Virus record (IMG/VR): IMGVR_UViG_3300036846_000414
Location: 1-20,998 of that record
Reading direction: 5' to 3' (one strand)
DNA length: 20,998 nucleotides
Source of the DNA: a virus
Translations under genes and position numbers: made by a program
Notes under the pieces: model-generated
Database searches by the model: none
Told to the model about the DNA's origin: nothing
Seen by the model: the letters and a program-made list of their open reading frames with translations, nothing else
Shown: positions 1,580-20,998 of the stretch, piece after piece
Layout of the letters: every line of letters begins with the position of its first letter
Numbering within the stretch: position 1 is the stretch's first letter

Positions 1580-1597
1580 AAGGTCTCTCGACCAAGG

Positions 1598-1617
1598 TCC
1601 GACCTCACTCGGTCGGA
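1598..1617. promoter_or_regulatory. Short hairpin at the start of the identical region
   Basis: TCCGACC and GGTCGGA form a 7-bp stem with a six-base loop (TCACTC), 61 bases before the terminase ATG. The identical part of the two genome copies begins at 1590, just before it. It could be a leader structure or part of a packaging site; role unknown. Confidence 0.35.
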
Positions 1618-1677
1618 AGGCGACTCCTGCGCTCGACGCTCGCGGCCGAGCTCCGACGTCGGCGCTACCGTCTCCGC

Positions 1678-3618
1678 ATGGCGGCCAAGCAGCGAGCTCA
1701 CGGCCAGGCCTGGCGCGAGCACGTCGCTCGAGTCACGCCGGAGCTCCGCGCTCGATGCGGCGACCTCTGCGAGCTCTGCGGCGCGCCGATCGACTTCGAC
1801 GCTCCGCCTCGTTCGAGGCGATCGCCGAGCGTCGACCACGTCGTCCCGATCCATGCCGGCGGCGATCCTCTCCCGCCGGTCGAGGAGCTCCGCCTCGTTC
1901 ACTACGGATGCAACGCCAAGCGAGGCAACCGGACGAGGCGAGGCGGCGTCCGCCTCGCCGCTCCCGTCGCGCCGGCCGTCGAGCTCCGAGCTCCGGCCTC
2001 GCCGAGGCCTCGCATGTACGAGCCGCCTCGACGGTCGCGCCACGACTCGAGCCTCGACTCTCATCCGTCGCTCCTCGACGAGCTCGAGCTCGCGGCTCTC
2101 GAGCGGTCGCGCTCCGGCCGGTTTTCTAGCCCTGCGATGACCCGGCGCCAGTCGGCAAGTGTTATCTCCCCTGGAAACACCCGGAGCTCCGCCAGGACGC
2201 GCCGGCGTCCGTCGGAAGAGGTCGAGCTCGTCCCGCCTCGCCTCGAGACGCGCCGGCCTTCCGACGTCGTCGGCTCCTACGGCGCCGAGGCGGCCGGCTG
2301 GATCGAGCGCTACCTCCGCGACGACCTTCGACCCTGGCAGCGCTACGCGCTCGAGCGGGTCCTCGAGCATCGCGAGGACGGCTCGCTCCGCTGGCGCCGC
2401 GTCATCCTCACCGTCTCGCGCCAGTCCGGGAAGAGCATCCTCTCGCGCGGCCTTTGCGGCTGGCGCGTCGGCGCCGCGGACCTCTTCGACGAGCCGCAGG
2501 AGGTCCTGCACGTCGCGAACCTCCGCGCGACCGCCTCCCGTATCTGGACGCCGGCGGCGCGGACGCTCGAGGAGACGCTCGGCGTCACCGTCCGCCGCTC
2601 GAACGGTCAAGAGGCGATCGAGCTCGTCGACGGCTCGGCCTGGCGGCTCGCCGCGTCGACCCTGGACGGCGGCGTCGGCTCGAGCGTCTCGCTCGCCTTC
2701 GTCGACGAGGCCTGGCGCGTCTCCCGCGACGTCGTCGACGGCTCGATCGCGCCGACGATGCTCGAGCGCGCCTCGCCTCAACTCGTCCTCGTCTCGACGG
2801 CCGGCGACGGCGGCTCGACGCTCCTCATCGAGGACCGCGACGCCGCGATCGCGGAGCTCGACGACCCGGACGAGGCGCGCATCCTCCTCCTCGAGTGGTC
2901 GGCGCCGCCGGAGGCCTACCCGGACGACCGCGACGCCTGGCGGCTCGCCTCGCCTCACTGGACGCCGGCCAGGCTCGAGGCGCTCGAGCACGCGCACGCG
3001 ACGAGCTCCGAGAACGACTGGCGCCGCCAGTACCTCAACCAGTGGGTCCTCGCGGCCCGGTCCTGGATCGCGCCGGCTCAATGGTCGGCCGCGGCCGAGG
3101 CGGAGCTCGAGCTCCCGTCGAAGCCGGCCGGCACGCTCGCCGTCAACGACCGCGACGGTCAGCCGGGAGCCTGCGGCTACGTCCTCGCGATCGCCGACGA
3201 CGCCGGCGACGTCGTCGTCTCCGGTCGCGCCTTCCCGACCCGCCGCGCTCTCTGGGCGGAGCTCGAGCTCCTCGCCGCGCGCCGGCGAGGCCTCGTCCTC
3301 CTCCATCCGGCCTCGTTCGAGAGGCACGTCGCGAGCCTCCGCGGCGTCACGACTCAGAAGGTCGGCACCGCCGAGCAGCGCGCCGGCTACGGCCCGACGC
3401 TGGCCGCGGTCGTCGACGGCCGCCTCCGCCACGACGGCGACCCGGAGCTCACTCGGCAAATGCTCACGGCGACGCCAGTGACGATCCCGGACGTCGGGAC
3501 GACGCTCTCCGCCAGGCGGTCGCCTGGTCCGATCTTCCTCGCTCGCGCGGCCGTCTGGGCGATCGGCGCCGAGCTCCGGCCGGAGCGTCGCCGGAAGCCG
3601 CTCATCGTCTCCGCCTAG
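1678..3618 (+). CDS. terL: HNH endonuclease-large terminase subunit fusion
   Basis: This 646-residue protein combines a packaging nuclease and motor. Residues 1-85 form an HNH domain with zinc pair C31/C34, catalytic D53-H54 and the H75..C78-N79 end. Residues from about 190 onward are the terminase large subunit. Its Walker A-type loop VSRQSGKS lies at 246-253, a Walker B DEAW at 343-346, and the LVSTAGDGGS coupling motif near 370. The C-terminal nuclease region is divergent. In most phages HNH and TerL are separate genes; here no stop divides them. TerL alone could start at the in-frame ATG at 2137 (493 residues, a normal TerL size). The start at 1678 is supported by the second copy, where an in-frame stop lies upstream. 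The segment around 2120-2215 has odd codon use. No small terminase gene is seen. It heads the late operon. Confidence 0.88.
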   Translation: MAAKQRAHGQAWREHVARVTPELRARCGDLCELCGAPIDFDAPPRSRRSPSVDHVVPIHAGGDPLPPVEELRLVHYGCNAKRGNRTRRGGVRLAAPVAPAVELRAPASPRPRMYEPPRRSRHDSSLDSHPSLLDELELAALERSRSGRFSSPAMTRRQSASVISPGNTRSSARTRRRPSEEVELVPPRLETRRPSDVVGSYGAEAAGWIERYLRDDLRPWQRYALERVLEHREDGSLRWRRVILTVSRQSGKSILSRGLCGWRVGAADLFDEPQEVLHVANLRATASRIWTPAARTLEETLGVTVRRSNGQEAIELVDGSAWRLAASTLDGGVGSSVSLAFVDEAWRVSRDVVDGSIAPTMLERASPQLVLVSTAGDGGSTLLIEDRDAAIAELDDPDEARILLLEWSAPPEAYPDDRDAWRLASPHWTPARLEALEHAHATSSENDWRRQYLNQWVLAARSWIAPAQWSAAAEAELELPSKPAGTLAVNDRDGQPGACGYVLAIADDAGDVVVSGRAFPTRRALWAELELLAARRRGLVLLHPASFERHVASLRGVTTQKVGTAEQRAGYGPTLAAVVDGRLRHDGDPELTRQMLTATPVTIPDVGTTLSARRSPGPIFLARAAVWAIGAELRPERRRKPLIVSA

Positions 3619-3680
3619 CCGATCGGCCTACGCCGAACGGCCGATTGCGGCGCGAGCTCGCCGAGCTCACGCTTCGAGGG

Positions 3681-4817
3681 ATGAGACTCCGCCGCGGAGC
3701 GTCGCTCGAGCTCGAGGCCGCGAGGCCTCGCGTCCGGCTCCCGGTCGTCCGCTCCGGCACGCCGCTCGAGGTCGCCGAGGTCGCCTGGCTCACCGAGGGA
3801 GTCGGCCGCGAGGCGGCGCTCACGATCCCCGCGGTCGCCGCCTGCCGCGCCGCGATCGTCGGGACGGTCGTCCAGCTTCCGGCCTACGCCTACCGCGGCG
3901 ACGAGCGGCTCGAGCCCGGCTACCTCCTGACGAGGCCGGACCCGTCGACGACCTGGACGGCGACGATCGCCGGCACCGTCGACGACCTCCTCTTCCACGG
4001 CCGCGCCTACTGGCGCGTCCTCGAGCGCGACTCGGAAGGCTTCCCGCGGCGCGCTCGCTGGACGCCTCACCGCGACGTCACGCCGGAGACCCGCTCGACC
4101 GGCGGCTCCTACTCCGAGCTCACCGGCTACCGCGTCGCCGGCGTCCCTCGCGAGCTCGAGGTCGACGAGCTCATCCGCTTCGACGGCCAGGCTCCCGGCG
4201 TCCTCGAGACCGGAGCTCGCACGCTCGCCGCGGCGCTCGAGCTCGAGGAGGCGGCTCGCCGGCTCGCCTCCATCGAGCTCCCCGCCGGCGTCCTCAAGAA
4301 CGAAGGCACCGAGCTCGGCGAGGACGAGGCGGCCGCGCTCGTCGCCTCGTTCGAGGCGATGCGGCGCGAGCATGGCGTCGCCTTCGTCCAAGGCCTCGAG
4401 TACCAACGCGAGAACCTCAACGCCGCCGACCTCCAACTCATCGAGGCGCGTCACAACGTCTCGACCGAGGTCGCGCGGCTCTTCTCGGTCCCGGTCGCGA
4501 TGATCGGCGCCTCGCCGTCCGGCAACTCGAGCGCGCTCCTCTACTCGAACCTCAGCCAACAACTCGCGATCCTGGTCTCGTCGGCCTGCGCGCCGCATCT
4601 CAAGGTCGTCGAGTCGACCCTCTCCGACGTCGTCCCGCGCGGCCAGGCGGTCGCCTTCGACGTCCAATCGTTCCTTCGCGGCGACCCGCAGGCCGCGTCC
4701 GACTACGCGACCGGCCTCCTCGCCGCCGGCGTCATCGACGTCGCCGAGGCCCGGTCCATGCTCGGCATCCCGTCCTCGTCCGGCACGCCGCCGGACCTCA
4801 CCCCTGGGAGGCTCTAA
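3681..4817 (+). CDS. Portal protein (HK97-type)
   Basis: This 378-residue protein forms the dodecameric ring through which DNA enters the capsid. Family hallmarks are visible: an N-terminal segment ending in AACRAAIVGTVVQLPAYAY, a VDDLLFHGRAYWRV strand region, and the C-terminal core NLNAADLQLIEARHNV followed by EVARLFSVPVAMIG and the SSALLYSNLSQQ helix. The length matches small HK97-type portals. The ATG at 3681 is chosen. An in-frame TTG at 3645 would add 12 residues and cannot be excluded, because the GAGG run next to the ATG is too close to act as a good ribosome site. The gap from TerL (62 bases) contains a weak ATCGGCC/GGCCGAT inverted repeat. The stop lies two bases before the protease start. 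Confidence 0.9.
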   Translation: MRLRRGASLELEAARPRVRLPVVRSGTPLEVAEVAWLTEGVGREAALTIPAVAACRAAIVGTVVQLPAYAYRGDERLEPGYLLTRPDPSTTWTATIAGTVDDLLFHGRAYWRVLERDSEGFPRRARWTPHRDVTPETRSTGGSYSELTGYRVAGVPRELEVDELIRFDGQAPGVLETGARTLAAALELEEAARRLASIELPAGVLKNEGTELGEDEAAALVASFEAMRREHGVAFVQGLEYQRENLNAADLQLIEARHNVSTEVARLFSVPVAMIGASPSGNSSALLYSNLSQQLAILVSSACAPHLKVVESTLSDVVPRGQAVAFDVQSFLRGDPQAASDYATGLLAAGVIDVAEARSMLGIPSSSGTPPDLTPGRL

Positions 4818-4819
4818 CG

Positions 4820-6430
4820 ATGCTCCACTTCGAGCGCGAGGTCCTCGTCGCCGACCTCAACGAGAGGACGATCGAGGGAGTCATCGTCCCCTATGACGAG
4901 GTCGGCGTCATCCAAGGCCGCGAGTACCGCTTCAGGGCCGGCTCTGTCCAGCTCGGCCGCCGCGTCCCGCTCCTCGTCGACCACGATCGCGGCCGGCCGA
5001 TCGGCGTCCTCGCCGAGCTCGTCGACCAACCGACCGGCGTCCTGGCGCGCTTCCGCGTCGACGCGACCGAGGCCGGCGACGAGGCCTTGACGCAGGCCGC
5101 GTCCGGCTCGCGCGGCGCGCTCTCGGTCGGCGCCGAGGTCATCCGCTCGAGCATGGCGCGCGACGGCGTCGTCGACGTCGAGGCCGGCCTCATCCATGAG
5201 ACCTCGCTCCTCGCGCTCGGCGCCTTCGAGTCGGCGGCCGTCACCCGCGTCGCCGCCGAGCAGGACGACCCGGACGGCGACGAGCCGACCGCCGAGCCGG
5301 CCGCCGACGACGGCCACGAAGCCGAGCTCGGCGACGACGAGCAGGACGACGAGCAGGAGACGACCGCCGAGCCGGTCGAGACGTCACCCGATCAAGAGGA
5401 GCTCGAGCTCGACGAGCCCGACGACGACGACGCCGGCGCCGCCGGCGACCCCGAAGGAGGGACCATGACCGAAGCAGCATCCGCGGCGCCCGTCATCCGC
5501 GCCGAGCGCTCGCGCTCGCCGCGCGAGCTCCTCGCCGGCGAGTACGTCGAGGCGATGATCCGCGCGAGCCAGGGAGACCGCGACGCCGCGCGGCTCATCG
5601 AGGCCGCGCTCACCGAGACGCTCTCGACCGACGTCGGCGGCCTCCTGCCTCCGACCTTCGAGCGGACCGTCATCGGCGGCCGCGACGTTCACCGGCCGCT
5701 CTTCGAGACCTTCCGCTCGAGGCCGCTCCCCGGAGTCGGCCTCCTGGTCAACAAGCCGGCATGGACGACGCCGCCGGAGGGAGCATGGGCGGCCGACGTC
5801 GACGCCGACGCGACGACCTCGAAGGTCGTCGTCGGCTCTCAGTCGGCGGCCGTCATCCGCTGGGACTGGGCCGGCGCGATCCCCTGGGTCGTCGTCCAAC
5901 GCTCCGACCCGTCGATCGTCGACGAGATCTACGGCGAGGCCGTCCAGTCCTGGTATCTCGACGTCGAGGCGAAGATCGGCGGCGAGGTCCTCCAGGCGGC
6001 TCCCGGCGTCGCGACGACGCTCGGCGCCGGCATCGCGGAGTTCTACGTCGCGAGCGGCTCGGAGCGCTCGCCGGAGGTCATCCTCATGGCGCCCGACGTC
6101 TGGGGCATGTTCGCCGACGCCGGCGCGCTCACCGTCCCGCTCGGCATGGGAGGCGTCTCCGCGGCCGAGCTCACGGCGAGTTTCGCCGGCATCCCGGCGA
6201 AGAGCTCCGGCACGCTCGCGCCTGGGACGGCGATCCTCGCGACCCGGCGCGCCGTCGACGCCAGGGTCACCGAGCCGGTCCGGCTCACGGCGAACGCGAT
6301 CGGCGCGCTCAACGTCGAGCTCGCCGTCGTCGGCGAGGGGCTCTTCGACACCGACTACCCGCGCGAGCTCCTCATGCTCTCCGGCGTCACGCCGGCGACC
6401 GCGGTCGCGTCGGTCAAGGCGAAGAGCTAG
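4820..6430 (+). CDS. Prohead protease-major capsid protein fusion
   Basis: This 536-residue polyprotein carries two head functions. Residues 1-150 resemble the HK97-type prohead protease: H55 in LLVDHDRG, the likely catalytic S102 in GALSVG, and a following HETSLLALGAF segment. Residues 149-214 are extremely acidic (long Asp/Glu runs), resembling a scaffold or delta region. From M216 an HK97-fold major capsid protein follows, with the conserved TDVGGLLPPTFERTVI N-arm and a P-domain/E-loop region rich in PPEGAWAADVDADAT. A GGGAGG ribosome site precedes the start. An internal start with a stronger ribosome site at 5465 probably makes extra free capsid protein. The fusion would supply protease, scaffold and shell from one frame, with self-cleavage releasing mature capsid. 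Confidence 0.9.
   Translation: MLHFEREVLVADLNERTIEGVIVPYDEVGVIQGREYRFRAGSVQLGRRVPLLVDHDRGRPIGVLAELVDQPTGVLARFRVDATEAGDEALTQAASGSRGALSVGAEVIRSSMARDGVVDVEAGLIHETSLLALGAFESAAVTRVAAEQDDPDGDEPTAEPAADDGHEAELGDDEQDDEQETTAEPVETSPDQEELELDEPDDDDAGAAGDPEGGTMTEAASAAPVIRAERSRSPRELLAGEYVEAMIRASQGDRDAARLIEAALTETLSTDVGGLLPPTFERTVIGGRDVHRPLFETFRSRPLPGVGLLVNKPAWTTPPEGAWAADVDADATTSKVVVGSQSAAVIRWDWAGAIPWVVVQRSDPSIVDEIYGEAVQSWYLDVEAKIGGEVLQAAPGVATTLGAGIAEFYVASGSERSPEVILMAPDVWGMFADAGALTVPLGMGGVSAAELTASFAGIPAKSSGTLAPGTAILATRRAVDARVTEPVRLTANAIGALNVELAVVGEGLFDTDYPRELLMLSGVTPATAVASVKAKS
5454..5467 (+). promoter_or_regulatory. Internal ribosome site and start for free capsid protein
   Basis: AAGGAGGG at 5454-5461 lies three bases before an in-frame ATG at 5465. 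It is one of the best Shine-Dalgarno sequences in the window. Initiation here would give a 321-residue protein, MTEAASAAP onward, which is a natural major capsid N-terminus. It would allow many capsid copies per protease-capsid fusion. This is inference from sequence; the fusion frame itself is continuous. Confidence 0.6.
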
Positions 6431-6759
6431 TGGCCGACTGGATCACGCCGGAGGACGTCGCCGAGCTCCTCGACCTCCCGGAGGCCGAGGCGCTCGACGA
6501 CAACCTCGTCAACTCGACCGCGGCCGTCCGCGCCGCGGTCGAGCAGCGTCGATCCGACCTCGACTACACCGACGCGACGACCGTCCCGGACAACGTCCGC
6601 CACGGCTCGGTCATCTGGGCCTCGATCCTCTACCAGACGCGCTCGGCCCCGTCCGGCTTCGCCGGCTACGGCGACGAGACCGCGATGTTCGACCCGCTCG
6701 GCTCGAGGCGCGCCGAGGTCCTGCGGCTCATCGGCTGGCGGAGGCCGGTCGCCTACTGA
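6430..6759 (+). CDS. Head-tail connector protein (gp6-like)
   Basis: This 109-residue protein starts with GTG sharing one base with the capsid stop (TAGTG). It begins DWITPEDVAELLDL and continues with a helical segment and a C-terminal SRRAEVLRLIGWRRP. The position directly after the capsid gene, the size and the helical opening fit the HK97 gp6-type adaptor that docks beneath the portal ring. Assignment rests on position plus general sequence character rather than a diagnostic motif. It ends in a TGATG overlap with the next gene. Confidence 0.65.
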   Translation: MADWITPEDVAELLDLPEAEALDDNLVNSTAAVRAAVEQRRSDLDYTDATTVPDNVRHGSVIWASILYQTRSAPSGFAGYGDETAMFDPLGSRRAEVLRLIGWRRPVAY

Positions 6760-7139
6760 TGGGCACCGTCGCCGCGCCTCCCGCCTCGCGAGCTCGCGCC
6801 GAGCTCGTCGACGAGCTCGTCGCCGCCGGCCTCGAGGCGACCGGCGACGCGGGAGCGTTTCATCCTCAGCCGACCGGCGTCCTGGTCGGCCTGCCGGCGC
6901 TCGTCGGCCGCACGCTGGCCGGCCGCACCTTCGAGGTCCCGGTCCTCGTCGTCTCCGGCGACCCGCTCAACTCCGACCTCAACGTCGACCGCCTCTACGC
7001 GATCGCCGACGAGGTCGCGCTCGTCCTCTCGACCGGCGCCTACCGGCCGAGCTCCTGGCGCTCGAGCTCGAACGCCGAGCCGCTCCCGGCGCTCGAGCTC
7101 ACCGTCACCGTCACCGTCACCGAGGAGGGACTCGCATGA
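6759..7139 (+). CDS. Probable tail terminator or head-tail joining protein
   Basis: This 126-residue protein starts at ATG sharing one base with the previous stop. It has an N-terminal helix (ARAELVDELVAAGLEATG), a hydrophobic strand region (FEVPVLVVSGDPLN) and a C-terminal beta strand LTVTVTVT encoded by a short ACCGTC repeat. The gene lies between the connector and the major tail protein, where siphophages encode the tail terminator or minor joining protein. The sequence contains no decisive motif, so the name is from position and fold impression. Confidence 0.55.
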   Translation: MGTVAAPPASRARAELVDELVAAGLEATGDAGAFHPQPTGVLVGLPALVGRTLAGRTFEVPVLVVSGDPLNSDLNVDRLYAIADEVALVLSTGAYRPSSWRSSSNAEPLPALELTVTVTVTEEGLA

Positions 7140-7591
7140 CTGATTCACGCCAGGGACCCGGCACGCTCACGATCGGCACGCCGCCGGTCGACGGCGTCGA
7201 GGTCTCGACGCAGGCCTCGGCCGTCAAGCTCACGCCGACCGTCAACTCGAACGACGGCACGCCGACGCTCGCGACGCCGGACCCGGCGCCGGAGACCGAC
7301 GTCGCCTGGTCGCTCAACGTCTCCGCGATCCAAGACTTCGAGGACCCGGCCGGCTTCGTCAACTACCTCATGGACCACGCGCTCTCCGAGGCGGAGTTCT
7401 CCTGGGAGCCGCTCACCGGCTCCGGCCCGACCTACTCCGGCACGCTGCAAATCGTCCCGATCGAGGTCGGCGGCGACGTCGCCGTCCAGGTCGTCACCGA
7501 CGTCGAGCTCCCGCTCGTCGGCCTTCCGATCCGCACCGACGGCGCGGCCGCCGCGAGCTCGAGGTCGAGGTCGAAGGCGGAGACCGGATGA
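7136..7591 (+). CDS. Major tail (tube) protein
   Basis: This 151-residue, beta-rich protein probably forms the tail tube. It opens with GTLTIGTPPVDGVEVSTQAS, continues with an ETDVAWSLNVSAIQDFEDPAGF segment and a BLOCK of beta strands ending IVPIEVGGDV, a pattern familiar from small actinophage tube proteins. Start choice is firm: a GAGGAGGG ribosome site lies five bases before the ATG, which also overlaps the preceding stop as ATGA. The strong ribosome site suits a highly expressed structural protein. Placement directly before the frameshifting chaperone pair supports the assignment. Confidence 0.8.
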   Translation: MTDSRQGPGTLTIGTPPVDGVEVSTQASAVKLTPTVNSNDGTPTLATPDPAPETDVAWSLNVSAIQDFEDPAGFVNYLMDHALSEAEFSWEPLTGSGPTYSGTLQIVPIEVGGDVAVQVVTDVELPLVGLPIRTDGAAAASSRSRSKAETG

Positions 7592-7863
7592 TCCGGCTCC
7601 GAGGCTCGGTCGAGTACGACTCCGGCCAGTCGGTCGAGTTCCAGGCCGGCTCGGCGGCGCTCGTCGCCTGGGAGGCCTACGCGCGCCGGCTCGGCATCCC
7701 GTCCGACCCGACCGAGAACCCGAACACCTGCGCCGCCTTCGTCGCCTACGTCTCGCTCGGCATCCAAGAGGGATTCGACGTCTGGATGCGCTCGGTCGTT
7801 GACATCGACGCGAAGCCGGTCGAGGAGGTCGACCCTTTCCCCGTGGAAGCGTCTCCCGCTTGA
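7588..7863 (+). CDS. Tail assembly chaperone, short form (gpG-like)
   Basis: This 91-residue protein starts in an ATGA overlap with the tube gene. It has an N-terminal beta region and a helical middle (AALVAWEAYARRLGI, then CAAFVAYVSLGIQEGFDVWM). Between the tube and tape measure genes, siphophages encode two overlapping chaperones, the longer made by a -1 ribosomal frameshift. Here a T TTC CCC heptamer lies at 7836-7842, near the 3' end, and the -1 frame stays open to 7976. The chaperone coats the tape measure protein while the tail tube is built. Identification is from order, size and slip site together. Confidence 0.75.
   Translation: MIRLRGSVEYDSGQSVEFQAGSAALVAWEAYARRLGIPSDPTENPNTCAAFVAYVSLGIQEGFDVWMRSVVDIDAKPVEEVDPFPVEASPA
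7836..7842 (+). other. Probable -1 programmed ribosomal frameshift site
   Basis: The heptamer T TTC CCC fits the X XXY YYZ rule in the reading frame of the chaperone gene: TTC and CCC codons can re-pair as TTT and CCC after a one-base slip. Shifting gives 85 residues from the first frame plus 44 from the second, 129 in total. There is no stop in the -1 frame before 7974. It is located seven codons before the stop of the short form. Confidence 0.7.
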
Positions 7864-7976
7864 TGGTCGAGCTCGCCGTCGCGACCGGCCGGCCGCTCGC
7901 CGAGCTCCGCGAGCTCGACGACGAGGAGCTCGCGACGCTCGTCGACGTCGCCGAGGAGCTCGGCCGCCTTGGCTAG
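7842..7976 (+). CDS. Tail assembly chaperone extension, -1 frame (gpGT-like part)
   Basis: This is the second segment of the frameshifted chaperone: 44 residues beginning RGSVSRLMVELAVATG and continuing with an acidic, Leu-rich helix (LRELDDEELATLVDVAEELGRLG). It lacks an independent ribosome site, but an ATG at 7863 shares one base with the short form's stop, so re-initiation giving a 37-residue peptide is an alternative route. In lambda the GT extension recruits the tube protein to the tape measure. The segment is smaller than usual, in keeping with the compact genome. Its stop overlaps the next gene's TTG start by eight bases. Confidence 0.65.
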   Translation, partial: RGSVSRLMVELAVATGRPLAELRELDDEELATLVDVAEELGRLG

Positions 7977-11786: not shown

Positions 11787-11793
11787 GAACGAC

Positions 11794-11817: not shown

Positions 11818-11836
11818 TCTGTCATGCTCGCGGCTC

Positions 11837-11862
11837 GGCCGCGGCTCTGCGGCGGCCGCGGC
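11837..11862. repeat. GC-rich direct repeat beside integrase, possible attP region
   Basis: GGCCGCGGC occurs twice (11837-11845 and 11854-11862) in the 70-base non-coding gap between the terminator and the integrase stop. Large serine integrases often lie next to their attP, and only this gap and the 76-base upstream gap are available nearby. No firm att core can be read from one sequence. Confidence 0.2.
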
Positions 11863-11887
11863 GCCCGTCACTGACTCCAGAGGAGAC

Positions 11888-13411
11888 CTAGTGCCGCGCC
11901 GCCTGCTTGACGAGCTCCTCGCGATCCTCGCCGATCGCCTCCGAACCTGCGCTCCTGAGCGGCGCCGCGTAGCGAAGCTCGGCGCGCTCGTCGATCGCGA
12001 CGCCGCGGCCGGCGCGCCGGACGATGACGTCGACGAGGACGACCTTGAGGAGGCGCCTTGACTCGGCGACCTCGAGCTCATGGCTCTCGACGGCCTGGCG
12101 GAGCGTCGTCCGCGCGAGCTCGAGCTCGGTCGCCTGGCCGCAGGCCTCGAGCTCCTCGCGGCGGAGCTCGACGACGTCGAGGCGCGCGCGGCGGCCGGCG
12201 GCGAAGGCCTCGCGGCCAATCTCGAGCTCGAGCTCGACGTCGAGCTCATACTCGAGCGCGACCCGCTCGGCCTCGGCGAGGCGATGCTCGGCGACGATCC
12301 GGTCGCCGCTCGCGTCCAACTCGAGCTCGAGCTCGACGAGCTCGTCCGCCGCGGGGCCGGCCCATTCGAGGACCTCGTCCCAGACGTAGGCGTCGAGCTC
12401 GTCGGCCACGATCGAGGCGCGAGCCGGGCATCCCGGCGTCGCACACTCGTAACGGCGGCGGCGGCCGTTCGCCTTCGTATGCGAGCTCATCGGCCGCCGG
12501 CAACCGTGGCAGGTCGCGACGCCGCCGAGCATCGAGACCGGCGCGCCGGAATGGCGGAGGCCGGCACCGTCGCCGGCGCGCTCGGCGTTGACGCGCTGGA
12601 CGGTCTCGAAGAGGTCGAGCTCGACGATCGCCTCATGCGCCTCGGCGTTGACGAGCTCCCCGTAGGAGACCTCGCCGAGATAGACCCGCGAGCGGACGAG
12701 CTCGCTCATCGTCTGCCGCGCCGTCGACCGGCCGGTCCGCTCCTCGAAGCGCTCGAGCAGCGTCGTCCAGGAGGCGCCGGCCGCGCGGAGCTCGAAGAGC
12801 TCGACGACGACCTTCGCCTCGGCCGGATGCTTGACGTAGCGATGGTCTCGGTCGAAGCGATACCCGAACGCCGGCGTCCTGGCGATCGCGCGGCCGGCGG
12901 CGATCGCGCCGCGCTTCGCCTGGTCCCAGTTCCCCGCGATCTTCTCCCACTCCATCCGCGCCAGGCTGAAGAAGAGCTCGCGCACGAACCGACCCTCTGG
13001 CGTCTTGGTGTCGAAGGCCTCGCTCGCCGAGAGGATGACGCCGCCGGCCGACTCGATCCGCTCGACGAGTTCGAGGCGATCCTTCGGCGCGAGCCTCGAG
13101 AGGCGGTCCAGCTTCGCGACGATGATCCCGTCGAGCTCGCCGGCCTCGATCGCCTCGACGAGCTCGTCCAGGATCGCGCGGCTCTTCCTGGCGCCGGAGA
13201 CGTCGAGCTCCGGCGGATACATGCGGACGTCGACGTCATGCTCGCCGGCGACGCGGTCGATGAGCTCCTCCTGAAACTCCGGGCTCCGGAGCCGCTCGTC
13301 GGCCTCGCGCCGGCCGACGTCCGAGACCCTCGGATACCCGCCGAGCAGGCGGCGACCCCTGGCTCGAGTTTGCCTCCGGCCGGTCCTCTTGGTAGCTTCG
13401 CGCTTGGTCAT
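11888..13411 (-). CDS. int: Large serine recombinase (integrase)
   Basis: This 507-residue enzyme would integrate and excise the genome. The N-terminal resolvase domain (about 20-160) has catalytic S30 in YPRVSD and the KLDRLSR motif near 100-106. A recombinase domain follows (about 165-290), including AFGYRF and a VYLGEVSYG segment. A zinc ribbon has C301/C304 and C323/C328, then a long Glu/Leu coiled coil (about 355-460), typical of large serine integrases. The start is chosen at 13411, where GGAGAGGAG precedes the ATG; an upstream in-frame ATG at 13462 has no ribosome site and lies inside the operator region. It is the only leftward gene, divergent from the lysis operon, so one short region probably controls both. 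A directionality factor is not recognised. Confidence 0.93.
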   Translation of the reverse strand: MTKREATKRTGRRQTRARGRRLLGGYPRVSDVGRREADERLRSPEFQEELIDRVAGEHDVDVRMYPPELDVSGARKSRAILDELVEAIEAGELDGIIVAKLDRLSRLAPKDRLELVERIESAGGVILSASEAFDTKTPEGRFVRELFFSLARMEWEKIAGNWDQAKRGAIAAGRAIARTPAFGYRFDRDHRYVKHPAEAKVVVELFELRAAGASWTTLLERFEERTGRSTARQTMSELVRSRVYLGEVSYGELVNAEAHEAIVELDLFETVQRVNAERAGDGAGLRHSGAPVSMLGGVATCHGCRRPMSSHTKANGRRRRYECATPGCPARASIVADELDAYVWDEVLEWAGPAADELVELELELDASGDRIVAEHRLAEAERVALEYELDVELELEIGREAFAAGRRARLDVVELRREELEACGQATELELARTTLRQAVESHELEVAESRRLLKVVLVDVIVRRAGRGVAIDERAELRYAAPLRSAGSEAIGEDREELVKQAARH

Positions 13412-13487
13412 CTTCCGTTCTCCTCTCCGTTGTGCCTGTTTTGTATTCCTGGAGAATACCAACGCGACAAAGGGGGCTCATATTCCC
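13412..13487. promoter_or_regulatory. Divergent control region with palindromic operator-like site (13443-13459)
   Basis: This 76-base gap is clearly richer in A+T than its surroundings. GTATTC and GAATAC form a perfect 6-bp inverted repeat with a five-base spacer (13443-13459), the shape of an HTH-dimer operator. On the minus strand TTGTCG and AATACA are 17 bases apart and could be -35/-10 boxes for the integrase, overlapping the palindrome. For the + gene, AAAGGGGG (13468-13475) is a candidate ribosome site. CTCAT/ATGAG could fold over its start codon. Confidence 0.5.
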
Positions 13488-13847: not shown

Positions 13848-14044
13848 CTGGCCGGCGCTCGACTCGAGGCCTCCGCGGCGTCCTCGAGCGTCGACGCGCC
13901 GAGCTCGACGAGCTCACCGGCGCCAAGACCGAGGACGAGGAGGTCGACGACGTCACTCGCCGGCCGGTCTCCTGGCCGCTCGAGCGCGACGACCCGGAGC
14001 GCGAGCGCTCGCATCCGGGAGCGTCGAAGGGAGACGGCTCCTAG
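13844..14044 (+). CDS. Small charged protein of unknown function
   Basis: This 66-residue, highly charged protein starts in an ATGA overlap and ends in a TAGTG overlap with the endolysin. It has an Arg-rich N-terminus (TGRRSTRGLRGVLERRRAELDEL), an acidic middle (TEDEEVDDV) and a disordered-looking tail. No known domain is visible. Translational coupling to both neighbours suggests it belongs to the lysis cassette, perhaps as a regulator or chaperone. An excisionase-type small basic protein is another possibility given its nearness to the integrase, but no DNA-binding motif is seen. Confidence 0.55.
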   Translation: MTGRRSTRGLRGVLERRRAELDELTGAKTEDEEVDDVTRRPVSWPLERDDPERERSHPGASKGDGS

Positions 14045-14871
14045 TGGCGCTCAAGCGTAAGAGCATCCCGTCGCCTAACTACTCGAGCCGCGGCGGCGCG
14101 ACCGTCCGGCTCATCGTCCTCCATACGGCCGAGGGAGCGCGCACGATCGAGGACCTCGGCGCGTTCTTTGCGAGCTCGAGCTCCGGCGTCTCCTCGCACG
14201 TCGGCATCGACGACAAGGACGGGACGGTCGGCGAGTACGTCAAGCGCGGCTCGAAGGCCTGGACCGCGGCCGACGCGAACCCGGTCGCCGTCCAGGCCGA
14301 GCTATGCGCCTTCGCCTCCTGGTCGCCGGCGGAATGGGACCGGCATCCGAACATGCTCGAGAACGCCGGCCGCTGGGTCGCGGAGGAGGCGGCGAAGCTC
14401 GGCGTCCCGATCACGAAGCTCTCCGCCGGCGCCGCTCAAGGCTCCGGCCGCGGCGTCTGTCAGCACGACGACCTAGGCGCCTGGGGTGGAGGTCACTGGG
14501 ATTGCGGCGGCGGCTTCCCGATCGACCGCGTCCTCTCAATCGCCCGCGACTGGGCAGACGGCTCCGGAGGGAGTGAGGACTACATGAACCCGCCTCAATG
14601 GCTTTGGGACTGGCTCCGCTGGTACTTGACGACCGACCGCGACCCGGCGAAGAGGCCGGACGCCGCGCCGGAGAAGATCCCTCAATGGGCCTGGGACTAC
14701 GAGGCCGAGGTCGAGAAGATCGGCAAGCGCTACGGCACGACCGGCGGCGAGCGCGACTGGATGGACTGGCTCGAGGCCGGCAAGCCGGACGGCGAGCGGC
14801 CCGACGTCCCGGAGACGATCCCGGAGCGTTGGTGGACCGACAACGACTACGTCCTCGAGCGCTCGCGATGA
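14044..14871 (+). CDS. Endolysin, N-acetylmuramoyl-L-alanine amidase
   Basis: This 275-residue enzyme cuts the amide bond between muramic acid and L-alanine in peptidoglycan. The amidase_2 fold is indicated by VRLIVLHTAEG (zinc ligand H27), SSHVGID (H52), and the terminal GGHWDCGGGFPID (H151, with D153/C154) that replaces the usual HxDPGxxFP. The C-terminal third (about 180-275) is Trp-rich with three repeats of a PxxWxW type (PPQWLWDW, IPQWAWDY, IPERWWTDN), a likely cell-wall-binding region. GTG start in a TAGTG overlap. No signal peptide, so a holin is needed for release; candidate membrane proteins are the 119-residue protein two genes upstream and the tiny membrane protein downstream. Confidence 0.92.
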   Translation: MALKRKSIPSPNYSSRGGATVRLIVLHTAEGARTIEDLGAFFASSSSGVSSHVGIDDKDGTVGEYVKRGSKAWTAADANPVAVQAELCAFASWSPAEWDRHPNMLENAGRWVAEEAAKLGVPITKLSAGAAQGSGRGVCQHDDLGAWGGGHWDCGGGFPIDRVLSIARDWADGSGGSEDYMNPPQWLWDWLRWYLTTDRDPAKRPDAAPEKIPQWAWDYEAEVEKIGKRYGTTGGERDWMDWLEAGKPDGERPDVPETIPERWWTDNDYVLERSR

Positions 14872-15092
14872 TCGTCGGCTCCTACTCGATCGAGGCCGGC
14901 CGGCCGCTCTCGCCGCGGATGCGAGACGTCCTCCGCTCCGCCGGCCAAGGTCGCGGCGTCACCGAGACCGCGCTCGAGCTCCGCCTCTCGACCGGCACCG
15001 TCCGCACGATCCGCGCCGCCGCGATCGCGCGGCTCGGCGTCTCGAACGTCACCGCGGCCGTCGTCGAGGCGGCGAAGCGAGGCGAGCTATGA
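14868..15092 (+). CDS. Small LuxR/GerE-type helix-turn-helix protein
   Basis: This 74-residue protein is essentially a lone LuxR-type DNA-binding domain. LSPRMRDVLRSAGQGRGVTETALELRLS matches the pattern LTPRExxVLxLxAxGxxxxEIAxxLxxS, and STGTVRTIRAAAIARLGVSN matches the recognition helix and the final KLGV segment. No sensory domain is present. It starts in an ATGA overlap with the endolysin. As the only recognised DNA-binding regulator apart from the integrase, it may control the divergent promoter region or the late operon, though phage proteins of this type may also act as terminase-like DNA-recognition factors; the missing small terminase makes that worth considering. Confidence 0.8.
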   Translation: MIVGSYSIEAGRPLSPRMRDVLRSAGQGRGVTETALELRLSTGTVRTIRAAAIARLGVSNVTAAVVEAAKRGEL

Positions 15093-15355
15093 CGGCCGGC
15101 GAGCACGCGCGCCGCGCCTCCGAGCTCCTCGAGCTCATCGAGCGCCAGGAGGACGAGCTCGACGAGCTCCTCCGCGACGATCCCGACCGCCACCTCGAGC
15201 TCATCGCCGGCGGCGCGATCAAGCGGCTCAACGCGAGCCGCCAATGGTCGGCGGAGCTCGCTCGAGCTCACGCGCTCGCCGCGATCGCGCTCTCGGTCTC
15301 GCCGGCGATCGTCGACGCGCTCGTCGACGCCGACCGCGCGGACGGCTTCCGATGA
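15089..15355 (+). CDS. Small helical protein of unknown function
   Basis: This 88-residue, helix-rich, acidic protein opens with a heptad-like stretch (ASELLELIERQEDELDELLRDD), then IAGGAIKRLNASRQWSAELARAHALAAIAL, and ends VDADRADGFR. It may form a coiled coil. Starts and ends in ATGA overlaps, between the HTH protein and the methyltransferase. The first-copy counterpart ends at 45. No catalytic motif or known family is recognised. Confidence 0.75.
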   Translation: MTAGEHARRASELLELIERQEDELDELLRDDPDRHLELIAGGAIKRLNASRQWSAELARAHALAAIALSVSPAIVDALVDADRADGFR

Positions 15356-15924
15356 GGCTCGCATACGCCGACCCGCCCTATCCTGGCAACGCCGCGCTTT
15401 ACGTCGGTCATCCCGACTACGCCGGCGAGGTCGACCATCGCGAGCTCGTCGCCGAGCTCGTCCGCTTCGACGGCTGGGCACTTTCGACGAGCTCCCGCTC
15501 GCTTCGATCCGTCCTCGCTCTGGTCCCGCCGGAGACGCGCGTCCTCATCTGGGCTAACTACTCGATCGGACGCTCATGGGAGCCGGTCCTCGTCTCGCCG
15601 GCTCGCCCGATCCCCGCCACGGGAGCCCCGCGCGACTGGCTCCGCGTCGACGTCGAGGCCTTCCAATGGCGACCTCGGCCGGACGGCTACGTCATCGGCC
15701 GCAAGCCGCGCGAGTTCTGCATCTGGCTCTTCCGCTGGCTCGGCGCGATCGCCGGCGGAGACGATGAGCTCGTCGACCTCTTCCCCGGCTCCGGCGCCGT
15801 CGGCGACGCCTGGGAGGCCTGGAATCGTCAGCCGTCTCTCTTCGAGGCGCCGCGCGAGCCCGATCGTCGCGCCGTTCGTCGCTGGCGCCGCGACCGTCCC
15901 GGATGGGTCTCGCTCCGCGTATGA
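15352..15924 (+). CDS. DNA adenine-N6 methyltransferase-like protein (variant B)
   Basis: This is the second allele of the methyltransferase at 42-614: 190 residues, starting at the ATG in the ATGA overlap (the frame is open further upstream, inside the previous gene). The DPPY and DLFPGSGAVGDAWE motifs are unchanged. About nine substitutions separate the two (for example D35A, SLC to ALV near 55-57, I to V in WLRI, terminal L to V), with most base changes at third codon positions. That pattern fits purifying selection on two functional alleles rather than decay. Confidence 0.85.
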   Translation: MRLAYADPPYPGNAALYVGHPDYAGEVDHRELVAELVRFDGWALSTSSRSLRSVLALVPPETRVLIWANYSIGRSWEPVLVSPARPIPATGAPRDWLRVDVEAFQWRPRPDGYVIGRKPREFCIWLFRWLGAIAGGDDELVDLFPGSGAVGDAWEAWNRQPSLFEAPREPDRRAVRRWRRDRPGWVSLRV

Positions 15925-16199
15925 GCCGCAAACGTCAGAAGGCCGCAGGCGGCGCCACAGGAGCCGCTCTCACGGCCTCCGAGCACGTCACGCGGTTAGT
16001 ACGTCGCCGGCGAACGCCGGAGACGCCTTGGTCCTGGCGCGCCGTCTGCGGCGCCTGCGGTCCGCTCGGCGGCGGCTGGACCAAGGCCGAGCACGAGGCG
16101 ACCGAGCTCGGCTTCGCGCACGCGCTCGAGCACGCCAGGCCGACTCAACTCGAGCTCGAGCTCGAGCTCCCGAACGGCCGGATGCGGAAGCGGCGATGA
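15921..16199 (+). CDS. Small CxxC protein with Leu-Glu repeat (variant B)
   Basis: This 92-residue allele of the gene at 611-898 keeps the MSRKRQKAAGG start, a CGAC pair preceded by another cysteine-free Arg-rich region, the WTKAEHEATELGFAHALEHAR core and the LELELEL run. It ends with LPNGRMRKRR, shorter and more basic than variant A. Histidines H in EHE, AHA and EHA follow the cysteines and could complete a metal site. ATGA overlaps on both sides. Confidence 0.75.
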   Translation: MSRKRQKAAGGATGAALTASEHVTRLVRRRRTPETPWSWRAVCGACGPLGGGWTKAEHEATELGFAHALEHARPTQLELELELPNGRMRKRR

Positions 16200-16276
16200 G
16201 CAACGCTCAAGTCTGGCTCGCTCTCGTCGAGGGTCCGCTCCTCGTCGTCGTCCTCGTCCTCATCGTCCGGCGATGA
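16196..16276 (+). CDS. Tiny single-pass membrane protein (variant B)
   Basis: This 26-residue allele of the gene at 895-984 has an ATG start. Reading: MSNAQVWLALVEGP, then LLVVVLVLIV and two arginines. The EGP kink and following hydrophobic run are the same as in variant A, while many bases differ, which argues that the peptide is made. It ends in an ATGA overlap with the 154-residue optional gene. Possible holin-like or membrane-modulating peptide; function unknown. Confidence 0.6.
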   Translation: MSNAQVWLALVEGPLLVVVLVLIVRR

Positions 16277-16737
16277 GCGCGCTCGTCGAGCTCTCGACGG
16301 AGGAGCTCCTCCTCGCCGCGATCGTCGGCGTCCGTCGGTACGTCGAGAGCATCGCCGCCGGCCACTCGAGCATCTTCGCGACCGACTGGTCCCGCCACGT
16401 CGAAGGCGCCGCGGCCGAGCTCGCCTTCGCCAAGGATCGCGGCCTCTACTGGACCGGCGTCACGCAACTCGCCCGGACCGACGTCTCCGGCGTCCAGGTT
16501 CGCCACACGACCCGACCCGACGGCTGTCTCGTCATCCGCGACCGCGACTGTCTCGCCAACGAGCCGACTGTCCTCGTCACCGGCGCCGCCGGCGTCTACC
16601 GCCTCGTCGGCTGGATACGACCGGCCTTCGCTCGCCGCGAGGAATGGCGGCGCGACCCGAACGGCTACGGCCCCGCCTACTTCGTCCCTCAATCCGCGCT
16701 CGAGACGCTCGAGGAGCTCGAGGAGCTCCTCGCATGA
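16273..16737 (+). CDS. Optional accessory protein, possible PD-(D/E)XK-like fold
   Basis: This 154-residue protein is present only in the second genome copy, inserted exactly between two genes that overlap directly in the first copy. An acidic N-terminal helix is followed by EGAAAELAFAKDRGLYW, TDVSGVQVRHT, LVIRDRD and a C-terminal YRLVGWIRPAFAR..EEWRRDPNGYGPAYFVPQSAL. The order Glu-containing helix, Asp in a turn, then a VQVR strand resembles the core of PD-(D/E)XK-type nucleases, with R in place of the usual K. The C-terminal signature is familiar from phage and prophage proteins of unknown function. Starts and ends in ATGA overlaps, so the operon stays coupled. A defence or counter-defence role would suit an optional gene beside a methyltransferase, but this is inference. 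Confidence 0.75.
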   Translation: MSALVELSTEELLLAAIVGVRRYVESIAAGHSSIFATDWSRHVEGAAAELAFAKDRGLYWTGVTQLARTDVSGVQVRHTTRPDGCLVIRDRDCLANEPTVLVTGAAGVYRLVGWIRPAFARREEWRRDPNGYGPAYFVPQSALETLEELEELLA

Positions 16738-17141
16738 GCTCGGTCGTCCCGGCCGCGCCGATCTACGAGAGCGGCTTCGGCTCGCTCGAGCGCGACCTCG
16801 CCGAGATACGCCGCAGGATCGCTCGCGGCCGGCCTCGGCCCGACGACCTCGACGACCTCGACGCGCTCACCGAGGCGCTCGCCGAGCTCCGGGCTCTGTA
16901 CCGCGCCGACCTCCGCGTCGCGCTCGAGCTCGGCGACGAGGCGACGCCGCTCGACGTCGCGCTCCTCCACGCCGAGGAGCTCCTCCACGACTCGCTCACT
17001 CTGAGGACGATCCCGTTCGAGACGCGCGAGGCGCTCCGCGCCACGCGCGAGGCCGACTGGTCGGTCGTCCTCTACGGCCTCGCCGGCGCCGCCAGGACTG
17101 GCGCGTCGACCAACGCCGGCGATGAGGCAGGCGGCCGTTAG
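16734..17141 (+). CDS. Conserved helical protein of unknown function (variant B)
   Basis: This 135-residue version of the protein at 981-1361 is about 80% identical. VVPAAPIYESGF, RRRIARGRPRPDDLDDL, the LHAEELL helix, LRTIPFETREALR and DWSV.LYGLAG are preserved. The N-terminus has one extra residue and the C-terminal tail (ARTGASTNAGDEAGGR) is different and longer. The gene is coupled by ATGA to the optional gene and is followed by a 12-bp hairpin terminator. Confidence 0.8.
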   Translation: MSSVVPAAPIYESGFGSLERDLAEIRRRIARGRPRPDDLDDLDALTEALAELRALYRADLRVALELGDEATPLDVALLHAEELLHDSLTLRTIPFETREALRATREADWSVVLYGLAGAARTGASTNAGDEAGGR

Positions 17142-17161
17142 GTAGCGACCGTCCGCCACGG

Positions 17162-17195
17162 CGGCCGGCCTCCTCGAGACCCCGGAGGTCGGCCG
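17162..17195 (+). terminator. Hairpin terminator after accessory operon (variant B)
   Basis: CGGCCGGCCTCC pairs with GGAGGTCGGCCG (12 bp including one G-U) around a 10-base loop. It stands at the same place as the 9-bp hairpin at 1376-1403 but uses different bases, so the pairing is conserved by covariation. It lies 20 bases after the stop of the preceding gene. Confidence 0.7.
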
Positions 17196-17340
17196 TCACA
17201 ACACTCGACCGCTCGAGCAGCCGGCGCCGGCGCTCGAGCTCTCGACGTCATCGGCTGGACCCGGCTCGAGAGAGACGCCGGCACGCCGCGCCTACTTCCG
17301 GCGCGACGGCGACCCTCCCCCCGGACCCCCCTCCAAGCCC

Positions 17341-17362
17341 CGAGCTCGCCCTAGCGAGCTCG
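17341..17362. promoter_or_regulatory. Perfect inverted repeat next to C-runs (second copy)
   Basis: Same CGAGCTCGC - CCTA - GCGAGCTCG element as at 1558-1579, again just after two C-runs, within otherwise altered flanks. It lies before the sharp switch to full identity at 17372. Confidence 0.45.
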
Positions 17363-17379
17363 AAGGGCTTAGACCAAGG

Positions 17380-17399
17380 TCCGACCTCACTCGGTCGGA
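17380..17399. promoter_or_regulatory. Short hairpin before terminase (second copy)
   Basis: Identical to the TCCGACC/GGTCGGA hairpin at 1598-1617; 60 bases before the HNH-terminase ATG. Confidence 0.35.
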
Positions 17400-17459
17400 A
17401 GGCGACTCCTGCGCTCGACGCTCGCGGCCGAGCTCCGACGTCGGCGCTACCGTCTCCGC

Positions 17460-19400
17460 ATGGCGGCCAAGCAGCGAGCTCACGGCCAGGCCTGGCGCGA
17501 GCACGTCGCTCGAGTCACGCCGGAGCTCCGCGCTCGATGCGGCGACCTCTGCGAGCTCTGCGGCGCGCCGATCGACTTCGACGCTCCGCCTCGTTCGAGG
17601 CGATCGCCGAGCGTCGACCACGTCGTCCCGATCCATGCCGGCGGCGATCCTCTCCCGCCGGTCGAGGAGCTCCGCCTCGTTCACTACGGATGCAACGCCA
17701 AGCGAGGCAACCGGACGAGGCGAGGCGGCGTCCGCCTCGCCGCTCCCGTCGCGCCGGCCGTCGAGCTCCGAGCTCCGGCCTCGCCGAGGCCTCGCATGTA
17801 CGAGCCGCCTCGACGGTCGCGCCACGACTCGAGCCTCGACTCTCATCCGTCGCTCCTCGACGAGCTCGAGCTCGCGGCTCTCGAGCGGTCGCGCTCCGGC
17901 CGGTTTTCTAGCCCTGCGATGACCCGGCGCCAGTCGGCAAGTGTTATCTCCCCTGGAAACACCCGGAGCTCCGCCAGGACGCGCCGGCGTCCGTCGGAAG
18001 AGGTCGAGCTCGTCCCGCCTCGCCTCGAGACGCGCCGGCCTTCCGACGTCGTCGGCTCCTACGGCGCCGAGGCGGCCGGCTGGATCGAGCGCTACCTCCG
18101 CGACGACCTTCGACCCTGGCAGCGCTACGCGCTCGAGCGGGTCCTCGAGCATCGCGAGGACGGCTCGCTCCGCTGGCGCCGCGTCATCCTCACCGTCTCG
18201 CGCCAGTCCGGGAAGAGCATCCTCTCGCGCGGCCTTTGCGGCTGGCGCGTCGGCGCCGCGGACCTCTTCGACGAGCCGCAGGAGGTCCTGCACGTCGCGA
18301 ACCTCCGCGCGACCGCCTCCCGTATCTGGACGCCGGCGGCGCGGACGCTCGAGGAGACGCTCGGCGTCACCGTCCGCCGCTCGAACGGTCAAGAGGCGAT
18401 CGAGCTCGTCGACGGCTCGGCCTGGCGGCTCGCCGCGTCGACCCTGGACGGCGGCGTCGGCTCGAGCGTCTCGCTCGCCTTCGTCGACGAGGCCTGGCGC
18501 GTCTCCCGCGACGTCGTCGACGGCTCGATCGCGCCGACGATGCTCGAGCGCGCCTCGCCTCAACTCGTCCTCGTCTCGACGGCCGGCGACGGCGGCTCGA
18601 CGCTCCTCATCGAGGACCGCGACGCCGCGATCGCGGAGCTCGACGACCCGGACGAGGCGCGCATCCTCCTCCTCGAGTGGTCGGCGCCGCCGGAGGCCTA
18701 CCCGGACGACCGCGACGCCTGGCGGCTCGCCTCGCCTCACTGGACGCCGGCCAGGCTCGAGGCGCTCGAGCACGCGCACGCGACGAGCTCCGAGAACGAC
18801 TGGCGCCGCCAGTACCTCAACCAGTGGGTCCTCGCGGCCCGGTCCTGGATCGCGCCGGCTCAATGGTCGGCCGCGGCCGAGGCGGAGCTCGAGCTCCCGT
18901 CGAAGCCGGCCGGCACGCTCGCCGTCAACGACCGCGACGGTCAGCCGGGAGCCTGCGGCTACGTCCTCGCGATCGCCGACGACGCCGGCGACGTCGTCGT
19001 CTCCGGTCGCGCCTTCCCGACCCGCCGCGCTCTCTGGGCGGAGCTCGAGCTCCTCGCCGCGCGCCGGCGAGGCCTCGTCCTCCTCCATCCGGCCTCGTTC
19101 GAGAGGCACGTCGCGAGCCTCCGCGGCGTCACGACTCAGAAGGTCGGCACCGCCGAGCAGCGCGCCGGCTACGGCCCGACGCTGGCCGCGGTCGTCGACG
19201 GCCGCCTCCGCCACGACGGCGACCCGGAGCTCACTCGGCAAATGCTCACGGCGACGCCAGTGACGATCCCGGACGTCGGGACGACGCTCTCCGCCAGGCG
19301 GTCGCCTGGTCCGATCTTCCTCGCTCGCGCGGCCGTCTGGGCGATCGGCGCCGAGCTCCGGCCGGAGCGTCGCCGGAAGCCGCTCATCGTCTCCGCCTAG
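17460..19400 (+). CDS. terL: HNH endonuclease-large terminase fusion (second copy)
   Basis: This 646-residue gene appears identical to 1678-3618. Here the upstream frame is stopped by TAG at 17370-17372, so the ATG at 17460 is the first possible ATG/GTG/TTG start; this fixes the start in both copies. The same internal ATG for a TerL-only product is at 17919. HNH, Walker A and DEAW motifs are as in the first copy. The lack of any change across nearly 2 kb, next to a diverged region, means very recent duplication, homogenisation or the same molecule read twice. Confidence 0.88.
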   Translation: MAAKQRAHGQAWREHVARVTPELRARCGDLCELCGAPIDFDAPPRSRRSPSVDHVVPIHAGGDPLPPVEELRLVHYGCNAKRGNRTRRGGVRLAAPVAPAVELRAPASPRPRMYEPPRRSRHDSSLDSHPSLLDELELAALERSRSGRFSSPAMTRRQSASVISPGNTRSSARTRRRPSEEVELVPPRLETRRPSDVVGSYGAEAAGWIERYLRDDLRPWQRYALERVLEHREDGSLRWRRVILTVSRQSGKSILSRGLCGWRVGAADLFDEPQEVLHVANLRATASRIWTPAARTLEETLGVTVRRSNGQEAIELVDGSAWRLAASTLDGGVGSSVSLAFVDEAWRVSRDVVDGSIAPTMLERASPQLVLVSTAGDGGSTLLIEDRDAAIAELDDPDEARILLLEWSAPPEAYPDDRDAWRLASPHWTPARLEALEHAHATSSENDWRRQYLNQWVLAARSWIAPAQWSAAAEAELELPSKPAGTLAVNDRDGQPGACGYVLAIADDAGDVVVSGRAFPTRRALWAELELLAARRRGLVLLHPASFERHVASLRGVTTQKVGTAEQRAGYGPTLAAVVDGRLRHDGDPELTRQMLTATPVTIPDVGTTLSARRSPGPIFLARAAVWAIGAELRPERRRKPLIVSA

Positions 19401-19462
19401 CCGATCGGCCTACGCCGAACGGCCGATTGCGGCGCGAGCTCGCCGAGCTCACGCTTCGAGGG

Positions 19463-20599
19463 ATGAGACTCCGCCGCGGAGCGTCGCTCGAGCTCGAGGC
19501 CGCGAGGCCTCGCGTCCGGCTCCCGGTCGTCCGCTCCGGCACGCCGCTCGAGGTCGCCGAGGTCGCCTGGCTCACCGAGGGAGTCGGCCGCGAGGCGGCG
19601 CTCACGATCCCCGCGGTCGCCGCCTGCCGCGCCGCGATCGTCGGGACGGTCGTCCAGCTTCCGGCCTACGCCTACCGCGGCGACGAGCGGCTCGAGCCCG
19701 GCTACCTCCTGACGAGGCCGGACCCGTCGACGACCTGGACGGCGACGATCGCCGGCACCGTCGACGACCTCCTCTTCCACGGCCGCGCCTACTGGCGCGT
19801 CCTCGAGCGCGACTCGGAAGGCTTCCCGCGGCGCGCTCGCTGGACGCCTCACCGCGACGTCACGCCGGAGACCCGCTCGACCGGCGGCTCCTACTCCGAG
19901 CTCACCGGCTACCGCGTCGCCGGCGTCCCTCGCGAGCTCGAGGTCGACGAGCTCATCCGCTTCGACGGCCAGGCTCCCGGCGTCCTCGAGACCGGAGCTC
20001 GCACGCTCGCCGCGGCGCTCGAGCTCGAGGAGGCGGCTCGCCGGCTCGCCTCCATCGAGCTCCCCGCCGGCGTCCTCAAGAACGAAGGCACCGAGCTCGG
20101 CGAGGACGAGGCGGCCGCGCTCGTCGCCTCGTTCGAGGCGATGCGGCGCGAGCATGGCGTCGCCTTCGTCCAAGGCCTCGAGTACCAACGCGAGAACCTC
20201 AACGCCGCCGACCTCCAACTCATCGAGGCGCGTCACAACGTCTCGACCGAGGTCGCGCGGCTCTTCTCGGTCCCGGTCGCGATGATCGGCGCCTCGCCGT
20301 CCGGCAACTCGAGCGCGCTCCTCTACTCGAACCTCAGCCAACAACTCGCGATCCTGGTCTCGTCGGCCTGCGCGCCGCATCTCAAGGTCGTCGAGTCGAC
20401 CCTCTCCGACGTCGTCCCGCGCGGCCAGGCGGTCGCCTTCGACGTCCAATCGTTCCTTCGCGGCGACCCGCAGGCCGCGTCCGACTACGCGACCGGCCTC
20501 CTCGCCGCCGGCGTCATCGACGTCGCCGAGGCCCGGTCCATGCTCGGCATCCCGTCCTCGTCCGGCACGCCGCCGGACCTCACCCCTGGGAGGCTCTAA
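19463..20599 (+). CDS. Portal protein (second copy)
   Basis: Identical to 3681-4817 as far as can be seen: 378 residues with the same portal core (NLNAADLQLIEARHNV, LFSVPVAMIG). The same alternative TTG start lies 36 bases upstream. It is followed after two bases by the protease-capsid gene. Confidence 0.9.
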   Translation: MRLRRGASLELEAARPRVRLPVVRSGTPLEVAEVAWLTEGVGREAALTIPAVAACRAAIVGTVVQLPAYAYRGDERLEPGYLLTRPDPSTTWTATIAGTVDDLLFHGRAYWRVLERDSEGFPRRARWTPHRDVTPETRSTGGSYSELTGYRVAGVPRELEVDELIRFDGQAPGVLETGARTLAAALELEEAARRLASIELPAGVLKNEGTELGEDEAAALVASFEAMRREHGVAFVQGLEYQRENLNAADLQLIEARHNVSTEVARLFSVPVAMIGASPSGNSSALLYSNLSQQLAILVSSACAPHLKVVESTLSDVVPRGQAVAFDVQSFLRGDPQAASDYATGLLAAGVIDVAEARSMLGIPSSSGTPPDLTPGRL

Positions 20600-20601
20600 C
20601 G

Positions 20602-20998
20602 ATGCTCCACTTCGAGCGCGAGGTCCTCGTCGCCGACCTCAACGAGAGGACGATCGAGGGAGTCATCGTCCCCTATGACGAGGTCGGCGTCATCCAAGGC
20701 CGCGAGTACCGCTTCAGGGCCGGCTCTGTCCAGCTCGGCCGCCGCGTCCCGCTCCTCGTCGACCACGATCGCGGCCGGCCGATCGGCGTCCTCGCCGAGC
20801 TCGTCGACCAACCGACCGGCGTCCTGGCGCGCTTCCGCGTCGACGCGACCGAGGCCGGCGACGAGGCCTTGACGCAGGCCGCGTCCGGCTCGCGCGGCGC
20901 GCTCTCGGTCGGCGCCGAGGTCATCCGCTCGAGCATGGCGCGCGACGGCGTCGTCGACGTCGAGGCCGGCCTCATCCATGAGACCTCGCTCCTCGCGC
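20602..20998 (+). CDS. Prohead protease-capsid fusion, 5' part only (second copy)
   Basis: The window ends after 132 codons of this gene, within the protease domain. The sequence equals 4820-5216, including H55 and the GALSVG serine. The truncation is the window edge, not a biological break. Confidence 0.9.
   Translation, partial: MLHFEREVLVADLNERTIEGVIVPYDEVGVIQGREYRFRAGSVQLGRRVPLLVDHDRGRPIGVLAELVDQPTGVLARFRVDATEAGDEALTQAASGSRGALSVGAEVIRSSMARDGVVDVEAGLIHETSLLA

Follow-up and report, generated by a model that had tools for sequence, protein, structure and literature searches.

Why should a single viral contig carry the same stretch of DNA twice, each time with a different neighbour on its left? 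The window analysed here, at 20,998 bp, is an entire IMG/VR virus record with nothing beyond either end, and a preliminary description had reported two identical segments in it, flanked by diverged alleles of the same region. A base-by-base comparison bore this out: the 3,627 bp at 1590-5216 recur without a mismatch at 17372-20998, an offset of 15,782, which makes an exact repeat far beyond chance expectation, and at this offset identity drops to background directly left of 1590. The left flanks of the two copies of this segment (S) are indeed diverged alleles, here called A and B, with 80-89% identity overall, except that B aligns from 15314 and not from 15311 as first described. In gapped alignments, positions 1-960 match 15314-16261 at 89.5% identity, while 981 to ~1590 match 16734-17371 at ~80% with indels; B also holds a 154-aa gene that A lacks and that has distant homologues in two relatives (L008 and L083). 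Homology between the alleles is unbroken up to 1590, where a 28-bp identical stretch is followed by ~10 diverged bases and then by full identity. Given this divergence between A and B, a plain circular read-through fails to explain the contig, as had been argued from the outset. The features on which the analysis draws are collected in Table 1.

Table 1. Features of the window, with positions, strand and the basis on which each was placed
Feature	Position	Strand	Basis or remark
Allele A of right arm	1..1589	+	methyltransferase-like gene and small genes; 89.5%, then ~80% identity to allele B
Segment S, first copy	1590..5216	+	end of right arm, cos, HNH-TerL, portal, start of protease-capsid gene; identical to 17372-20998
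Putative cos core GAC-CCGGCGCCA-GTC, first pass	2139..2153	+	cut before 2151, putative 9-nt 3' overhang 2142-2150; contig ends of relatives
Portal protein	3672..4817	+	Pfam PF04860, E 1.6e-33; start codon provisional
Fused head protease and major capsid protein	4820..6430	+	PHROG 2263, 3270
Large serine integrase	11888..13462	-	PF00239, PF07508, PF13408; PHROG 95, E 3.4e-67
Allele B of right arm	15314..17371	+	alignment to 1-1589
154-aa gene, in B only, missing from A	16273..16737	+	ORF list and alignment gap
Segment S, second copy	17372..20998	+	reaches contig end; identical to 1590-5216
HNH-TerL single frame, 646 aa	17460..19400 (first copy 1678-3618)	+	ORF; cut inside codon 158
Putative cos core, second pass	17921..17935	+	cut before 17933, putative overhang 17924-17932; contig ends of relatives, joined records

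Behind the repeat stands a tailed phage with a small, GC-rich genome of about 15.8 kb, the size proposed in the preliminary description, which agrees both with the offset and with full-length linear relatives of 14.4-15.9 kb between fixed ends. Profile matches identify among its genes TerL, a portal, a fused head protease-capsid, a connector, a major tail protein, an amidase and a large serine integrase, the last of which would permit lysogeny. The relatives were taken from IMG/VR in searches giving 23 and 56 records. Three of them (G005, G021 and G029) are circular contigs that cross the joined genome ends; their ends overlap by 106, 123 and 127 bp, and their units measure ~14.6-15.4 kb; for such circular relatives we used blastn end overlaps and ignored tblastx end mapping, which is noise in GC-rich DNA. 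The contig tails of two relatives (L014 and L015) end in poly-C or C-rich runs that resemble sequencing or assembly junk. The 15,782-bp unit maps end to end onto linear and circular relatives alike. While the window, taken alone, could be read as a single larger phage genome that truly holds a 3.6-kb duplication and both right-arm alleles, this mapping, the fixed ends and lack of any such repeat in the linear relatives, and the size of the circular ones make that reading extremely improbable.

The relatives also indicate where the genome begins and ends. The contigs of 23 relatives, drawn from sixteen datasets, all have window base 2151 (equivalent to 17933) as their first base and start with GTC, and seven full-length relatives end 9 nt short of this point on the other side. 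The missing 9 nt are present in joined contigs, including both passes within the window, and the flanking GAC/GTC is symmetric in most joined records. In the simplest reading this would be a cohesive-end site, GAC-N9-GTC, whose 9-nt 3' overhangs would have been lost to end repair during library preparation. We infer an overhang of this length because the 9 nt are missing in the linear contigs, and its polarity would be 3'; the 3' extensions of 8-11 bases in Microbacterium phages are in keeping with such a site (PMC7302621). Measured against these ends, the window physically starts with the terminal 2,150 bases of one genome (with allele A), continues through one whole genome (with allele B) and finishes with the initial 3,066 bases of a further copy that matches the second exactly.

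What template could give rise to such a contig? Of the two possibilities raised in the preliminary description, a tandem of two phage genomes or a haplotype mixture in assembly, the evidence favours the latter and does not support the former. One dataset (3300005764) holds five different TerL-bearing contigs of this phage group (L015, L019, L020, L021 and L041), several further datasets hold two to four group members each, and the relatives are single units; strain mixture is the normal state for datasets in which the group is present. We thus regard the contig as most likely the product of an over-extended 'lasso' assembly in which two or more strains of a small cohesive-end siphovirus were mixed. 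The assembler would have entered via the right arm of a strain X (allele A), met segment S, which would be common to X and a second strain Y, gone once around the joined Y genome (from S through the body to allele B), re-entered S and halted where the shared stretch ends, shortly ahead of a hypervariable linker. How often S occurs, and in which order A and B stand, would be products of this path, not properties of one molecule. The path itself we infer; what was observed is that the repeat is exact and its flanking alleles diverged, that unit size and genome ends are defined, and that datasets contain many related strains.

Both ends of the contig bear on this reading. On the right, the contig stops within conserved sequence, ~45 bp short of the acidic linker of the protease-capsid gene (~5260-5460). 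This linker varies among relatives, and the contig end is a likely branching point of strains. No identity step was seen at 5216 in relatives compared along the genome, which gives no reason to assign the first S copy and the body to separate strains. At the left end, a difference between alleles A and B already appears within the first five bases. The idea that two genomes with a common body are present did not hold, given this early difference and the fact that only S occurs twice, and because of it the body of strain A is probably a different sequence, absent from the record. On the same grounds we rejected a simple bubble of two alleles joined on either side to a single shared body. Neither an A-specific nor a B-specific 30-mer had an exact match among viral contigs, and the true neighbours of either allele were therefore not seen.

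A real tandem would take the form of a double lysogen, or of a concatemer from mixed co-infection, with the molecule running A-S-body-B-S and the S copies made identical by recent recombination or conversion. Although a serine integrase is present, the joined ends are crossed twice by the contig and recombination does occur in the group (L009 and L010 show sharp divergence blocks between near-identical flanks), no large internal repeat or multi-unit contig was found among the other fetched relatives tested, and two pattern-limited scans of 84,980 species genomes revealed no close prophage, the one match being at 39% (L087). Furthermore, a concatemer from a single infection would carry identical copies. 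We consider a tandem unlikely on this evidence, and a mosaic double lysogen in particular slightly less likely still. An exact repeat of 3.6 kb is beyond what a short-read assembler can bridge, so that the contig would be no evidence of linkage across S even were a tandem present; with long source reads, on the other hand, the linkage between A and B could be real.

Assembly from a strain mixture, the reading we prefer, still allows that part of the mosaic is genuine. The A strain may truly share S as a result of recent recombination, and the edge at 1590 would then be real; a real A-S recombinant strain is possible; the junction from A to S is homologous and smooth, as real recombination would also give. 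A conserved inverted repeat (GAGCTCGCCCTAGCGAGCTC) lies at 1560-1585, with a matching stretch in B at ~17340-17366, directly before the identity between the alleles begins. Two relatives from different datasets (L013 and L015) are 100% identical over the 5,345 bp next to cos, beyond which identity falls abruptly to ~85%, a pattern expected of strain switching or of real mosaicism; the pair may represent one sample assembled twice or a genuine mosaic. The same lasso could also have formed with strain X lacking a true S, the junction from A to S being a chimera made at a short exact stretch common to X and Y. The boundary does lie just past the 28-bp stretch conserved in A and B, and strain collapse by assemblers is known, yet a 28-bp match is too short at large word sizes, truly shared DNA explains just as easily why 3,627 bp are identical right up to the contig end, and long shared tracts exist in separate records, as in the pair just described. 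A chimeric junction of this kind is, in our view, improbable.

Over-long and strain-confused contigs have been described before. CheckV reported over-long contigs from assemblers that concatenate genome copies, such contigs being listed in IMG/VR, and removed 6,543 of 751,567 end-repeat contigs at a duplication of at least 20% (PMC8116208), while Phables described strain bubbles in phage assembly graphs, where strain collapse by assemblers is likewise known (PMC10563150). As in these cases, the window holds a repeated part of a genome in one viral contig from a public metagenome, in a setting of strain mixture; unlike them, its second lap enters via a diverged allele, which makes it resemble two different phages. 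The 106-127-bp overlaps of the circular relatives match the type that CheckV ascribes to assembler word length (PMC8116208); joined templates normally close as circles with an overlap of this kind. At 17% of the window length, the duplication slips just under the commonly used 20% filter. The record is not trustworthy as a tandem phage: the order of its alleles and the number of copies probably stem from assembly, and the doubled contig is, in the best reading, not a real biological feature.

While the repeat is of low interest, the HNH-TerL frame that spans cos is worth following. One frame runs across the putative cos site in both copies within the window and also in L007-L011, L027, L039 and L055, with an HNH domain at residues 2-88 (PHROG 338) and TerL at residues 170-491 (PHROG 9). 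Among nine joined records with six linker lengths (324-372 nt), HNH and TerL are in register and stop-free in all nine. From the cut to the conserved part of TerL, several linear relatives lack any in-frame ATG, GTG or TTG, and the group has no start codon in common in this interval. If the overhang is 9 nt, HNH and TerL are in register in the linear relatives G016, G024 and G025 but out of register in G015 (left end L021, right end L030), an exception that may reflect a sequencing error, a different overhang or a real separation. The whole linker has a third-position bias (1078/1055/1565), whereas the ~40 codons around cos have none (277/328/325). Because the codons beside cos lack this bias, the case for a fused frame rests on register, on the absence of stops and of any start common to the group, and on both domain matches.

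Together, these features suggest that HNH and TerL have likely become one gene across cos. The HNH nuclease and the TerL motor would then probably be encoded by a single gene that is cut at every packaging, lies in two pieces in each virion and is rebuilt only when the ends are joined, and a fused HNH-TerL protein would be produced. If true, terminase expression would depend on successful end joining, and the group would offer a clean case for the study of cos cutting by a fused enzyme. The phages in question form a widespread uncultured group of small phages with well-defined genome ends, the cut lying within their own HNH-TerL frame. No small terminase subunit was identified in the window phage. 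A limited literature search, which is weak evidence of absence, returned no earlier description of a cos cut inside an HNH-TerL frame.

A functional parallel comes from HK97, in which the HNH protein gp74 promotes cos cutting together with TerL (PMC9410871). Its cos ends are 10-nt 3' overhangs, with which the predicted 9 nt in the window phage are in keeping; its HNH, TerS and TerL, in contrast, are separate proteins, whereas HNH and TerL share one frame here (PMC9410871). In overall layout the window phage is similar to Decurrovirus (Arthrobacter phages Toulouse, KU160670, and Kels, ON970580), siphoviruses of ~15 kb that also have a fused protease-capsid gene, an HNH gene at the extreme right end and the same order of head and tail genes. 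Decurrovirus is not a close relative, however, with ~38% identity over 28% between the capsid proteins. Moreover, HNH in Toulouse and Kels has its own stop before the genome end and TerL is separate, behind a small first gene, in contrast to the single 646-aa frame of the window phage; nor is an integrase annotated in Decurrovirus, while the window phage has its serine integrase. A protease-scaffold-capsid fusion comparable to that of the window phage is also described in very small actinophages (clusters EE, AX, FE, CW, DM and RRH1), and cluster EE genomes vary mainly in their rightmost part, much as A and B do; these clusters were likened through their published description, a comparison that covers features other than genome ends (PMC7302621).

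Among more distant relatives is a set of complete-looking contigs of ~13.1 kb (L060-L066, G031 and G032) with ~41% TerL identity. The HNH part had no match in G031 and G032, and the contigs of the whole set, these two included, also start near the same place in TerL.
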